From the NCBI GenBank assembly GCA_002104905.1, contig MCFE01000013.1:124001-188000 (forward strand): a stretch of DNA of 64,000 nucleotides. Direction: 5' to 3'. The notes under the pieces were generated by a model, which saw only the letters and a program-made list of their open reading frames with translations, had not been told where the DNA came from and made no database searches. The position numbers and the translations under genes were made by a program. The stretch comes from Basidiobolus meristosporus CBS 931.73 (lineage: Eukaryota; Basidiobolomycota; Basidiobolomycetes; Basidiobolales; Basidiobolaceae). This document shows, one piece after another, positions 1 to 59,666 of the stretch. Position 1 is the first letter of the stretch. Each line of letters begins with the position of its first letter.

Positions 1-917
1 GTGAAGACCATCCTCAGTTCCGCGGTATCTATGTTGGATCCCTCTCCAGCCCCAGAGTCAAGGAGGAGGTTGAGGGCGCTGACCTCATCCTCAGTGTTGG
101 TGGCTTGAAGTCCGACTTCAACACCGGATCCTTCTCCTACCGCATGGACGCTGAGAAGACTGTCGAGATCCACTCTGACTACACTGATGTGTTCTACGGT
201 ACCTACAAGGCTGTTGGTATGAAGTACTTGTTGCCTAAGCTTGCTGCTGCCATTCCCAAGCGCGAGGTCCAAAGCATCAACCTCCACGTCGAGCTCCCCA
301 AGATCGACATGAAGGCCATGGTTCCTCAAGCCTGGTTCTGGAACAGAATGGGCAAGTTCTTCAAGCCTAACGACATTGTCCTTGCTGAGACCGGTACCTC
401 CGTGTTCGGCTGCTTGAACTCTCACATGCCCGAGGGTGCCACCTTCATCTCCCAGATTCTCTGGGGTTCCATTGGTTACACCGTTGGTGGATGTCTTGGA
501 GCTGCTGTTGCCGGACAAGAGCGTCGTGTTATCTTGTTTGTCGGTGATGGTTCCTTCCAGCTCACCTGCCAAGAAGTGTCGGTCATGATCCGTCTTGGTC
601 TCCGCCCCATCATCTTCTTGTTGAACAACAACGGCTACACCATTGAGCGTTTGATCCACGGAGTCAAGCGTACCTACAATGACATTGACAACTGGGACTT
701 CAGCAAGACCCTTGACTACTTCGGTGGTGCTGCTGGTCAAGACAAGATTGGATTCCAAGGCCGTGCCAACACTGCTGGTGAGTTTGAGCAAGTGTTGAAG
801 AAGGTCGAGAGCCACGCCGACAAGATCAACTTTGTTGAGGTCATGATGGACTGGTTGGATGCCCCTGAGAACTTGGTCAAGCAAGCTGAAGCTTCTGCCG
901 CTCTTAACCGCTCTTAG
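1..917 (+). CDS. PDC: Pyruvate decarboxylase, PDC1 (5' end cut by window edge)
   Basis: Thiamine-diphosphate enzyme that decarboxylates pyruvate to acetaldehyde and CO2 in the cytosol, the first step of ethanol fermentation. The reading frame is open from position 3 and covers the last 304 residues (255-558 by comparison with the complete copies). It contains the ThDP/Mg-binding motif GDGSFQ...NNNGYTIE in the C-terminal domain. The N-terminal catalytic part lies left of the window. It has His at residue 349 (LHVELPKI), a variant shared with PDC4 and PDC9, where the other closely related copies have Ser. An AATAAA signal lies at 960-965, and the 3' flank resembles that of PDC2, so PDC1 and PDC2 look like tandem duplicates. 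Confidence 0.96.
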   Translation, partial: EDHPQFRGIYVGSLSSPRVKEEVEGADLILSVGGLKSDFNTGSFSYRMDAEKTVEIHSDYTDVFYGTYKAVGMKYLLPKLAAAIPKREVQSINLHVELPKIDMKAMVPQAWFWNRMGKFFKPNDIVLAETGTSVFGCLNSHMPEGATFISQILWGSIGYTVGGCLGAAVAGQERRVILFVGDGSFQLTCQEVSVMIRLGLRPIIFLLNNNGYTIERLIHGVKRTYNDIDNWDFSKTLDYFGGAAGQDKIGFQGRANTAGEFEQVLKKVESHADKINFVEVMMDWLDAPENLVKQAEASAALNRS

Positions 918-1824
918 ATTCATATAAATTTCCCAAATTAGATTGTACATTAAGTGATTAATAAAACTATGTTAACACAAACTTATTATATTGAGTACAA
1001 GATGTTTGAGAGCCATAATGACCAGGCCTATTCTATCCAAGCAAAAATTTGTTGTTTACACTATCGTGGTCAATCTTGTCAAGAAGCAGTGGCCCATTTG
1101 AGCAGAGAATCGTTTTGTAATTGACAATTTGATTTGTGACTATAATCAATTGGATCTTTTAGAGCATTATTTTTGACGTAAGTGATTTAAACCTTACCCC
1201 AAGTAGTTGGTGTATTTGAAATTACAATATTTCTCATAAACATTCTCCGTAGCCACTGATCGATTGTTTCGTGTGTTTGAAACAGATTAATCGTATTATT
1301 AATTTCTTCAGCCAGTCGCTATTAATTATTATGTATGTCTATTTTTCACCTTTTGAAGGGTTTTGATTCTCCCAACTTGGTATTATCCTTGCTCAATTTT
1401 CTTAATGAAGTTATCAATTCGACAATTTCAATGTTGGCATCATGTCGGTTTCCCAATGGGCTAATAACAGCTGGACCAATGATCTTTGTTAAGGTATTCT
1501 AGAACAATTGCAATTGCAGTTTATCACACTACTGTCTACTAATAAAGCTCTATCATCGTCGATGAATAAAAGCAATTGGATTCATTCATTTTACGTGGTT
1601 GTGAGAATGCTAGTGAAAATCGGACCAGATAGTATCCATAAGGAAATCCCACTTGCGCATGTAGCATACTCTACATAATTGGTAGTCTTTCTGTATTAGG
1701 ACGCTTGCTTTGGTAGCAATCAGTTCTAGTGTATACGATATTATCGGGATGCTATGGTATATATAAAGCGATCGAAATGCTACAAACATCATCAAACTAC
1801 TATTAGTTTTGTCCCACTACTAAG
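918..1824 (+). promoter_or_regulatory. PDC1-PDC2 spacer with PDC2 promoter
   Basis: It holds the PDC1 3' flank (AATAAA at 960-965) and the PDC2 promoter. A TATA box (TATATATAA) lies at 1758-1766, 67 nt before the PDC2 ATG. I see no credible gene in the AT-rich part between them. The AATCYGGAA-like motif present before PDC3-PDC9 was not found here. Confidence 0.6.
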
Positions 1825-57180: not shown

Positions 57181-59020
57181 CTTGAAAAGATTGTTGCAGA
57201 GCCAAGTACGGGTGTAGTGTGTATATATACTTCATTTAAGGTTAGACCTAGTTTCCACGCTTAATCATTCTAGCCATTGATACAACCAAACACCCAGTTC
57301 TTGGAGCGAGGTCGGGCTATATGACGCTGACTGTAGTATACGTATTCGCGGTGCCCAACCGATATATTCGACCAAAACGACAGCTTGTTTACCAGGGGAT
57401 TTGTGTTTTTCCAAAATAGTATCATGGTTGACAAGTTCTTACCACAATGGTTTGACCTCATGTAGGAATGAGTTTAGCGAAGCAATCTTTCGGTGTCGCC
57501 TTGGTAAACCTTGAGCCGTATGGAACTGGATTCCAAATTCCATCTTATCTTACCAATCGCCCCGTCTATCAGTCTATCGGTTTTATCCGACCTTGAATGG
57601 GACTTTTTGGAGGATCCCTTTGGCCCTAATTCCCATAACCTACGTGCTGCCACTTTCAATTATTGTTAGTGTTAGGGTAGGTGGGGTACAGAACCGAACT
57701 TTCTGTTTAGGAAATATTTACTTACCCTTGATTTTCAATAGGATCCTTCCCGCTGTCGCGATCAGATTCGACCAATGAATACTATATTCGGCATTGCCAA
57801 ACGTAGTGCCTAGGTGAGAATTCTAGAGTTGACGATTCACCCACCCTTCGGTGGTTACGTGTTGGTAATGAAATCTAGGTCCCCTTACTCACATGGGTGG
57901 GTAAATCTTTGCCGGCTATAGATAGATTTCCACAGCTTCCCCATCTCCGTGGTTTCCCAGATTCTTACCTGCTTAAATCCCCGCATGCAACTATGTTTAG
58001 GAGAGATTAAATATGGTAAATCTGGTTTAAAAAACGTAGAATGATGGCTCCTGAAGTGGTGGGTTGCTTCATGCGATGTTCATTGATATCCCCTCATGTA
58101 TGGATATGTTGTTCATTCGAAGAAGTATTTCACCAGTGTGCACGCAGCAATGTTGGCTTTGGAAAATCTTCTGATTTGGGCCATGCTTGTCTTTTCAAAA
58201 TAGCTACCATTCTTTTACTTTTTTAATCCCGGGGATATTGATTATGCTTGCGATGGGCCTACTGCGTTTGAGAGTGGCTAGACATATGGGGCAGATGGGA
58301 GGATGCATTGCTTAACTATTACGTGCCTTGTATATATCAAACATTCGGAGATTAAAATGCTCCCGAAATATGGAAGTTTTTGATGTTGTCTCCCTGTCTC
58401 GGGCTAGATGACCACACGTGGTGTTTGAACCCGTGGCTTCGGTGTATTGGATTTGGCTATGCTAAGGTCTTGACTGCTCGCCTCAGCATTGGGTTCTGGA
58501 CATAGGCAGGGTAGCGAGAACACGGGTTCGTGGTGACCTTGTTTGGGGACGTCGATCTAAATTTGAGGAGGGTAGTTTCGCTCCCCGTGGCAATGGTGGA
58601 TGGTTCCTCGACCAACGTCGAGAAATACGATTGAAAATGGATAGGCTCGCAATTGTTGCTCCTTTACTTTTATCTTTTTCATATGACGTGTCGATGTTAG
58701 GAATCTCCCTGAGGATTTTCGGTCTGGATATGGAATCATGCAAGCAACCTCGTTTCTCAACCGTAGATGGACGTAACATCCTCATGACCTGGCATGCTAT
58801 AGATCGTGTTTGGACTGAGGCCATCAACTGTACATCTCGTTAATGCTTTTGATAAAATCTGGCGTACAGTACATCCACTCTGCTAAATATGTTGTTGTTC
58901 ACTATGTTTAGTCACTCCCTTTCCGAATTTATCACAAGCTAGATGATCGATTTAGCAAAAATATTATTCAAGGATGATTTCTATTTATTCTTGAGGGGTA
59001 ATTTACAGACTTGATCTAAT
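57181..59020. other. Gene-poor spacer before the last ADH pseudogene
   Basis: ADH16 TATA at 57222-57229. 1.8 kb of mixed composition follows, with scattered frames of 60-110 codons on both strands (for example 58483-58827 on -). None has a motif I recognise or a second copy in the window. TGTTAGGGTAGG near 57668 is a weak telomere-like motif. Confidence 0.4.
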
Positions 59021-59666
59021 TTAATGGTTGTGCATGTCAAGGCTGATACGTCCGGCAATCTTGCCAGCCTGCATGTCCTCGTAAATTTGTGCAGTTTGAT
59101 CCATTCCCATGACCCTGTAGTGGTAATTGACCTTGCCACGAGCAGCAAAGTCAAGAGCCTCAGCAAGATCTTGATGGTTACCAACAATGGAACCACGGGT
59201 GGTCAACTGTTGGAGGACAAGATCGGACACGGGGAAGGTATCCTTGGCTCCAGCTGGAAGGGTAATGCAGGCAACAGTACCCCAGCGATGAGTGTAGTCA
59301 ACAGCTTGTTGGAAGGGCTTCATTTGGGCAACATGAGAGCCACGAGCCACACAGTACTCTTGGAAACTGCCATCAACACTGTATCCAGACAACTCTGACA
59401 GAGTCGCCATTCTTGAGGTGCTTGACATTGCTACCGAGAGCAGCAATCTTACCTGATCCTTCGCGACTACCGACCAAAGTGAGCACGATGGGGATAGGCC
59501 AGTCACCCTCGGCGGCGTGGAGGTCAGTGTGGCAGATACCGGTGTACTCGATCTTGACGAGGACGTCATCAGGTCCGGGAGTAGGGACAGGGATAGTTTG
59601 GATCTCAACGGGTTTCTCGTGAGATTCGATGACAGCGGCTTTTTGAGTCTTGGGGATTTGGGACAT
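59021..59666 (-). pseudogene. Alcohol dehydrogenase pseudogene, ADH17
   Basis: It begins MSQIPKTQ with the ESHEKPVEIQ of the ADH15 group. His68 of the catalytic zinc site is Arg (GSREG). A first deletion with frameshift removes about residues 94-118, including all four structural zinc cysteines. A second removes about residues 142-250, including the third catalytic Cys and the GAGGGLG nucleotide motif. The C-terminal 100 residues follow in frame with many substitutions. The TATA box (TATATA on -, 59709-59714) is still 43 nt before the ATG. It is much older than ADH14 and marks the right end of the array. Confidence 0.93.

Follow-up and report, generated by a model that had tools for sequence, protein, structure and literature searches.

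A tandem array of pyruvate decarboxylase and alcohol dehydrogenase genes in Basidiobolus meristosporus, probably old and homogenized by gene conversion

Introduction

What would lead a fungus to keep the two enzymes that convert pyruvate to ethanol in many copies at one locus, and what would hold those copies alike? The question is raised by a 64,000-nucleotide stretch of the genome of Basidiobolus meristosporus CBS 931.73 (assembly GCA_002104905.1, contig MCFE01000013.1, positions 124,001 to 188,000, forward strand; hereafter the window, to which coordinates refer unless the contig is named), in which genes for pyruvate decarboxylase (PDC) and alcohol dehydrogenase (ADH) are interleaved. In Saccharomyces, homologous enzymes with the same function are encoded by few, dispersed and unlinked genes. 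A preliminary description of the window had reported a PDC and ADH array at this one locus, implied that it was amplified recently, and read it as selection for gene dosage or high fermentative flux. We find that the array is real, and we regard it as likely that this mixed tandem array is old and has been kept for the protein dosage that it gives the two-step route from pyruvate to ethanol. Its copies were probably homogenized by gene conversion rather than produced in a recent burst.

Results and discussion

All PDC genes found in the assembly lie in one 69-kb array

We searched contig positions 84001-208000 by tblastn with one PDC and one ADH and then, with the known genes masked, searched again for fragments. 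The array occupies contig 114744-183666, about 69 kb of a 260,741-bp contig (one of 1311 in the 89.0-Mb assembly), and runs past the left edge of the window, as had been proposed, by 9.3 kb. With about 95-99% identity between copies over 1-1.8 kb, it is not a chance finding. The window holds three PDC fragments and 10 PDC gene bodies, the first of which crosses the left edge; the thirteen PDC sequences first counted are reached only by adding the fragments to the gene bodies. Nine to ten of the genes had been called complete: nine are full length in the window, and only eight of these are intact, namely P2 (1825..3580), P3 (5066..6821), P5 (10995..12751), P7 (17179..18934), P8 (24724..26479), P9 (32084..33839), P10 (36302..38057) and P11 (49389..51125). 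The count of 17 ADH genes, 14 intact and three broken, stands, with one degenerate trace besides. The PDC gene encodes 558 amino acids and has one 79-nt GT-AG intron; the ADH gene is intronless and encodes 350. Every PDC within the window is on the + strand and every ADH on the − strand, an arrangement first described without exception; beyond the left edge it is inverted, with the PDC copy PL on − and two ADH genes, AL2 and AL1, on +. The impression that the window contains essentially nothing but the two enzymes is compatible with a Pfam scan of four open reading frames (ORFs) of 100-157 amino acids in or beside the spacers, none of which had a match.

A genome-wide first-look candidate search for PF02776 gave 23 matches, 21 in the array and two on other contigs. 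The latter, judged by eye, resemble acetolactate synthase, so that all PDC genes found in the assembly sit at the array and none was found outside it at this level of candidate scoring. ADH_N, by comparison, has 54 matches across the genome, many outside the array; a DNA search with one ADH-PDC unit found matches off the array contig only on contigs C1079 and C535 (82%). Most close ethanol-type ADH genes and all PDC genes found form one 69-kb block. The ADH relatives on C1079 (L029) and C535 (L031) are 98% alike over 756 bp, the C535 copy lying at a contig end.

Near-identical genes are separated by diverged spacers

Apart from P11, nine PDC copies share 95.8-98.8% of their DNA sequence, with a range of 94.6-98.7% among the twelve main ADH copies. 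The same protein is encoded by all five ADH genes from A7 to A11, and identical proteins also come from A1/A5, A15/A16 and P2/P7, while every intact copy has its own distinct DNA sequence. When each gene was compared with 2 kb on both sides, for all pairs among 10 PDC and 15 ADH, similarity stopped, on each side, no more than 30 bp from the ORF in 37/45 PDC pairs and 93/105 ADH pairs. Longer flank similarity marks copied blocks (P7-P8-P9-P10, A2-A6-A7, A8-A9-A10 and A1-A5), and short downstream extensions of 60-130 bp join P5 with P8 and P9 and occur at A7, A8, A9 and A11.

The pairing and amplification of consecutive fermentation enzymes, claimed from the outset, is plain in the arrangement. 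Four divergent ADH/PDC units have start codons about 700 bp apart: A2/P7 (16479/17179), A4/P8 (24017/24724), A6/P9 (31377/32084) and A7/P10 (35599/36302), with common spacers at 16480..17178, 24018..24723, 31378..32083 and 35600..36301. A fifth unit, A12/P11 (48224/49389), has a spacer of 1164 bp (48225..49388). The order ADH, PDC fragment, ADH, PDC is repeated in three blocks, spaced about 7.5 kb apart from start to start. Block 1 (13269-18934) consists of A1 (13269..14321, −, intact, 350 amino acids), a PDC 3′-end fragment (14871..14988, +), A2 (15427..16479, −, intact) and P7; block 2 (20937-26479) of A3 (20937..21989, −, intact), a PDC promoter/5′ fragment (22548..22679, +, 70%), A4 (22964..24017, −, broken by one single-base insertion) and P8; and block 3 (28366-33839) of A5 (28366..29418, −, intact), a PDC 3′-end fragment (29960..30074, +), A6 (30325..31377, −, intact) and P9. 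Block 1 is collinear with block 3 over almost its whole length, at 91-92%; the right part of block 2 is 97.6% identical to block 3, and its fragment is the other (5′) piece of PDC. PDC-only copies follow one another to the left of the blocks, and mainly ADH-only copies lie to the right.

Within this framework the spacers have diverged far more than the genes. The A2/P7 and A6/P9 spacers align end to end (698/707 columns) at 62.5% identity, or about 0.5 changes per site, against a synonymous divergence (dS) of 0.069 for the adjacent PDC and 0.082 for the adjacent ADH genes, and introns 89.9% identical. Spacer divergence so far above gene dS within one block points to duplications of greater age than the genes suggest, and on this ground we reject the recent amplification burst implied by the preliminary description; the genes would look young because they have been homogenized. 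The A4/P8 and A6/P9 spacers, at 98.6%, are, judging from that identity, a recent copy. For PDC pairs outside the blocks the upstream 700 bp align at 39-52%; 10 shuffles of one spacer pair averaged 44 and reached at most 48, and two pairs lie slightly above the shuffled level (P5 with P7, 52%; P5 with P10, 49%).

Abrupt edges could also mean that gene-only segments (ORF plus intron) recently spread into unrelated spacers whose flanks were never homologous. Similarity that stops at ORF edges in most pairs, and several spacers that cannot be aligned above the shuffled level, are what such a process would leave. We nevertheless think it improbable: the spacers of the four divergent units are collinear at 62-99% and so were once homologous and then drifted, the blocks correspond well beyond the genes, and the retained intron argues against mRNA retrocopies.

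Conversion, selection and codon bias

A recombination test based on the clustering of compatible sites gave p values of 0.001-0.002 at three distances for 12 ADH copies, and 0.005 for the subgroup A1-A6 (n=5). Two further copies, A12 and A13, are mosaics whose identity to the other copies alternates along the gene between 57-88% and 93-100%. Among PDC copies, divergence of the intron, on which codon bias does not act, averages 0.075, similar to the dS of 0.082, and the array intron is nearly uniform, while that of P11 is unlike it in both length and sequence. Gene conversion inside genes is likely on these data, better supported for ADH than for PDC.

Mean dN/dS, the ratio of nonsynonymous to synonymous change, was 0.021 for seven PDC copies, 0.054 with PL included and 0.047 for 12 ADH copies; P0, P1 and P4 (broken), the fragments, AL1 and the broken ADH genes were left out, and P11, AL2, A12 and A13 were compared apart. 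Ratios of 0.02-0.05 suggest that most copies are not spare, since amino-acid changes would otherwise accumulate. Codon usage is strongly biased, with an effective number of codons (ENC) of 35.0-37.1 for eight PDC and 35.9-39.3 for 12 ADH copies, compared with 47.1-53.6 for four flanking genes and 44.8-58.6 for the other ADH and TPP-enzyme genes compared. Single copies give 52.7 (P11), 46.4 (AL2), 41.0 (A12) and 38.0 (A13). Five GAPDH genes range from 29.6 to 45.7, four of the five at or below 35.7. These genes (L045-L049) are dispersed over five contigs, four of them with strong codon bias: a multi-copy glycolytic gene without clustering.

Upstream TATA-like boxes

We looked for TATAWR at −75 to −36 from the start codon in PL, P2-P5 and P7-P11 and in A1-A12 and A15-A17. 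It is present in 10/10 PDC and 11/15 ADH promoters (21/25), against a background of 6.75% of 40-bp spacer stretches; the binomial p values (~2e-12 for PDC, ~1e-10 for ADH) overstate the significance, since the copied blocks do not count as independent observations. The four ADH genes without the word (A2, A4, A6 and A7) have TTATTTAAG or GTATTTAAG at that place. Read from sequence, most copies tested have a TATA box of their own. The region upstream of AL2, outside the count, carries the word as well.

A common promoter motif was sought and rejected: an unbiased word scan was negative in eight of nine tests, and the ninth (TTTCCAAA in 6/16 promoters, p 0.015) is at chance level for nine tests. 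The word ATTCYGGA/AATCYGGA, upstream of 6/9 PDC and 3/11 ADH, was hand-picked after looking and is not established.

The enzymes are predicted to make ethanol

P0001, the cluster representative of the array PDC copies, matches the Pfam domains TPP_enzyme_N, M and C, all above cut-off. Aligned by eye with yeast PDC1 chains, P2 keeps the GDG...N cofactor motif and the catalytic residues, which we take to be D28, E51, H114, H115 and E477 in yeast numbering. ADH_N and ADH_zinc_N domains are found in A2, A13 and AL1, and A2 retains the zinc-binding Cys/His residues when aligned with solved yeast-type ADH chains. Two tryptophans that presumably line the ethanol pocket (roles and numbering likewise assumed) are kept in A2, A7, A12, A13 and AL2, the five array-region genes found to have both on inspection by eye; one is changed in AL1, and both are changed in the ADH relative on C1079. 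Among solved structures, PDC is best matched by yeast pyruvate decarboxylases and ADH by yeast-type ADH.

By sequence the ethanol reading of the two enzymes is strong; the flux and its direction we infer. The suggestion of selection on dosage fares better than that of high flux, as dosage fits the low dN/dS, the codon bias and the TATA-like boxes. The array could instead serve the conversion of other 2-oxoacids to fusel alcohols, or the consumption of acetaldehyde or ethanol. Flux direction cannot be fixed from sequence, and one close solved match was deposited as a branched-chain-2-oxoacid decarboxylase, but the yeast enzymes that match best and the conserved pocket tryptophans point elsewhere, and we assign this alternative a low probability.

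A bacterial origin was considered and set aside: among the best 120 matches, named relatives outside Basidiobolus are mostly fungi, and PDC bears an intron. They share 47-56% identity with PDC (with rotifers among them) and 55-60% with ADH (with a red alga and one plant-labeled record). Excerpts of a review list 25 Zn-ADHs in B. meristosporus, second of 37 fungi, and mention neither linkage nor PDC (PMC10526403).

A divergent PDC-ADH pair with counterparts in Basidiobolus ranarum

P11 (+, 77% DNA identity, 57-nt intron) and A13 (51327..52502, −) lie tail to tail, 201 bp apart. The P11 protein is identical to database entry P0002, named pyruvate decarboxylase PdcB of B. meristosporus CBS 931.73; it is 93.2% identical to B. 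ranarum P0003 and 89.6% to the array copy P2. In the tree P11 groups with P0003 (support 85/76), and the array PDC copies stand together against P11 plus B. ranarum (80/59 and 85/76), with the array copies of one species included. Read from its upstream start, A13 has a 36-residue leader with seven basic and no acidic residues (52395-52502) ahead of a mosaic body resembling the array copies. The leader resembles the 38-residue leader of B. ranarum P0122, with which A13 groups (100/100), and it is predicted to be a mitochondrial-type presequence conserved in B. ranarum.

Protein records place P0003 and P0122 each on a 6648-bp contig, from which we infer the same contig; the pair is thus probably linked in B. 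ranarum too. P11 itself has ordinary codon usage. The simplest history, with moderate tree support, would start from an old PDC-ADH pair; one line of its duplicates would have turned into the amplified, highly codon-biased form before the species split.

How the array may have arisen and been maintained

We propose that a divergent ADH-PDC pair with a common 700-bp spacer was duplicated repeatedly, three blocks of about 7.5 kb surviving, and that the array was extended by PDC-only copies leftward and ADH-only copies rightward. The spacers would then have drifted apart, while ectopic gene conversion within genes, together with purifying selection on the copies, would have kept the proteins the same; conversion tracts would stop at gene edges because the flanks no longer match. 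The outcome would be two sets of near-identical genes whose codon usage is that of highly expressed genes, eight intact PDC copies (presumed cytosolic) and about twelve ADH copies, alongside the less codon-biased anchor PDC P11 and the mitochondrial-type ADH A13. High fermentative dosage is, we suggest, the best reading of this outcome.

Several observations weigh against parts of this proposal. The recombination signal is not significant for the ADH subgroup A7-A16 (n=7, p 0.11) and is weak for PDC (p 0.11-0.27 for seven copies, 0.04-0.14 with PL); the array introns are just 79 nt; and codon bias in itself slows synonymous change. The TATA count was made without P0, P1, A13, A14, AL1 and AL2. 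Among the best 120 matches B. ranarum is represented by a single PDC cluster, which is of the P11 type, so that an old array is not confirmed in the relative, although the B. ranarum proteins compared sit on short contigs (6.6-38 kb) and the lack of an array-type PDC cluster among the matches listed is not decisive. Finally, the frame-broken full-length copies P0, P1, P4 and A4 are hard to reconcile with selection acting on every copy, unless the breaks reflect consensus errors. All their frame-breaking changes are single-base insertions, the type of error that most often persists in early long-read data, and some of the breaks may be assembly errors; A14 and A17, for their part, have lost long stretches.

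Old duplicates could also have stayed alike without gene conversion, purifying selection and extreme codon bias alone holding the synonymous sites while the spacers drifted. The strong bias, the very low dN/dS and the PDC-alone recombination test agree with this explanation. Three GAPDH paralogs, however, are more biased than the array genes (ENC 29.6-31.2) and have nonetheless reached a dS of 0.31-0.45, a comparison whose weight depends on the age of these paralogs and which is a guide and not proof. The near-uniform intron (set against that of P11), the alternating identity of A12 and A13 and the ADH recombination signal also argue for conversion, and we see only a small chance that it played no part.

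An assembly artefact, whether from duplicated haplotypes or miscollapsed repeats, is very improbable: such repeats are hard to assemble and four copies carry single-base insertions that resemble uncorrected long-read errors, but each intact copy is distinct in DNA, most spacers are unlike one another, ordinary, unrelated genes lie on both sides, no near-identical second left flank appears among the matches listed, and excerpts of PMC7466969 describe PacBio sequencing of this isolate from gecko dung.

Comparison with known systems

Each ingredient of the locus, whether tandem dosage arrays, concerted coding regions or linked pathway genes, has precedents. In the Leishmania beta-tubulin loci, as excerpts of PMC1533823 describe them, coding regions are conserved and evolve in concert, perhaps by ectopic gene conversion, and non-coding flanks are distinct; that system, though, is one family at three loci, whereas here two pathway enzymes are interleaved at one locus, mostly with their own TATA-like box. 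Tandem duplicates in Trypanosoma brucei have likewise been read as gene dosage, in a genome without individual gene promoters according to excerpts of PMC1855330. Fungal functional clusters such as those of Pichia stipitis bring together genes of related function, some in tandem, and the excerpted account mentions neither a linked PDC-ADH pair nor an array as large as this one (PMC2784038).

Histone and rDNA arrays are homogenized repeats driven by dosage, and some histone genes form divergent pairs in which the two members differ. They differ from this array in that they do not encode metabolic enzymes and their spacers are usually homogenized too. Among the papers listed by our searches of the open-licence literature, none describes this locus in its title or the opening of its abstract, in keeping with the earlier view that it was undescribed, and none of those listed for Basidiobolus with ethanol, fermentation or anaerobic growth is devoted to ethanol fermentation. 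The combination of these ingredients for ethanol fermentation at this size looks new.

If our reading is right, a eukaryote treats a central metabolic pathway like histone or rRNA genes, with many uniform copies in one place, and strong ethanol fermentation is predicted for an early-diverging gut fungus. Near-identical coding units with unrelated flanks would be natural replicates in which different promoters drive the same two proteins, and the contrast between coding unit and flank would allow a direct test of what determines where gene-conversion tracts end. We entertain, tentatively and as less likely than the account above, a bolder version: an ancient, genus-wide dosage locus resembling a histone cluster, with homogenization restricted to the exons and intron that make up the coding unit and about twenty independently drifting promoters driving practically one PDC and one ADH protein, in an extreme ethanol fermenter of the low-oxygen amphibian or reptile gut.

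Remaining copies and neighboring genes

Left of the window, the array begins with an ADH trace (from -9256), followed by the two + strand ADH genes AL1 and AL2 (-8851..-7799 and -7309..-6251), the intact, inverted PL (-6071..-4316, −) and P0, which is frame-broken and also lacks one codon near its start. P1 (-841..917, +) crosses the edge, so that its 3′ part occupies 1..917; its frame is broken left of the window by single-base insertions. The intron of P2 lies at 2041-2119, that of P5 is 80 nt long, and between P2 and P3 lies the degenerate ADH trace (3902..4082, −, 45-49% at the amino-acid level). P4 (8326..10082, +) is full length, with one single-base insertion breaking its frame.

To the right of the blocks, the intact − strand ADH genes are A7 (34547..35599), A8 (38513..39565), A9 (40816..41868), A10 (43138..44190), A11 (45501..46553), A12 (47172..48224; 89-91% identical to the twelve main array copies), A15 (54116..55168) and A16 (56128..57180). 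A14 (53003..53593, −) is disrupted by one large deletion inside the gene and by smaller deletions, and A17 (59021..59666, −), broken by deletions, forms the right end of the array. Long ORFs antisense to many ADH genes are taken as a by-product of codon usage and not as genes. Tandem Repeats Finder (period limit 500) reported no repeats, and Rfam gave no match.

Genes for a cyclin, a TIP49/RuvB-like protein and a mitochondrial-type ribosomal protein L2 lie left of the array (contig 104832-111050; L011 832-7050), and a B. ranarum relative of the last is on a 10,451-bp contig, which is uninformative about synteny of the left flank. A genome search with this flank returned six short matches elsewhere, at 74-80%; the list lacks the flank's own position, which we take to mean that the source was omitted. 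A second haplotype was rejected on the left flank, the right flank being an uninformative high-copy repeat. The first ordinary gene to the right (60012-60890, +) encodes a 3′-5′ exonuclease (DNA_pol_A_exo1) with an N-terminus that looks mitochondrial by eye. Beyond it lie pieces of a Copia-type retrotransposon (RVT_2 and gag) at 62808-63713 (−) and L013 1484-2233, and the first 2.8 kb of L013 have matches at dozens of genomic sites, for the most part at 93-96%.

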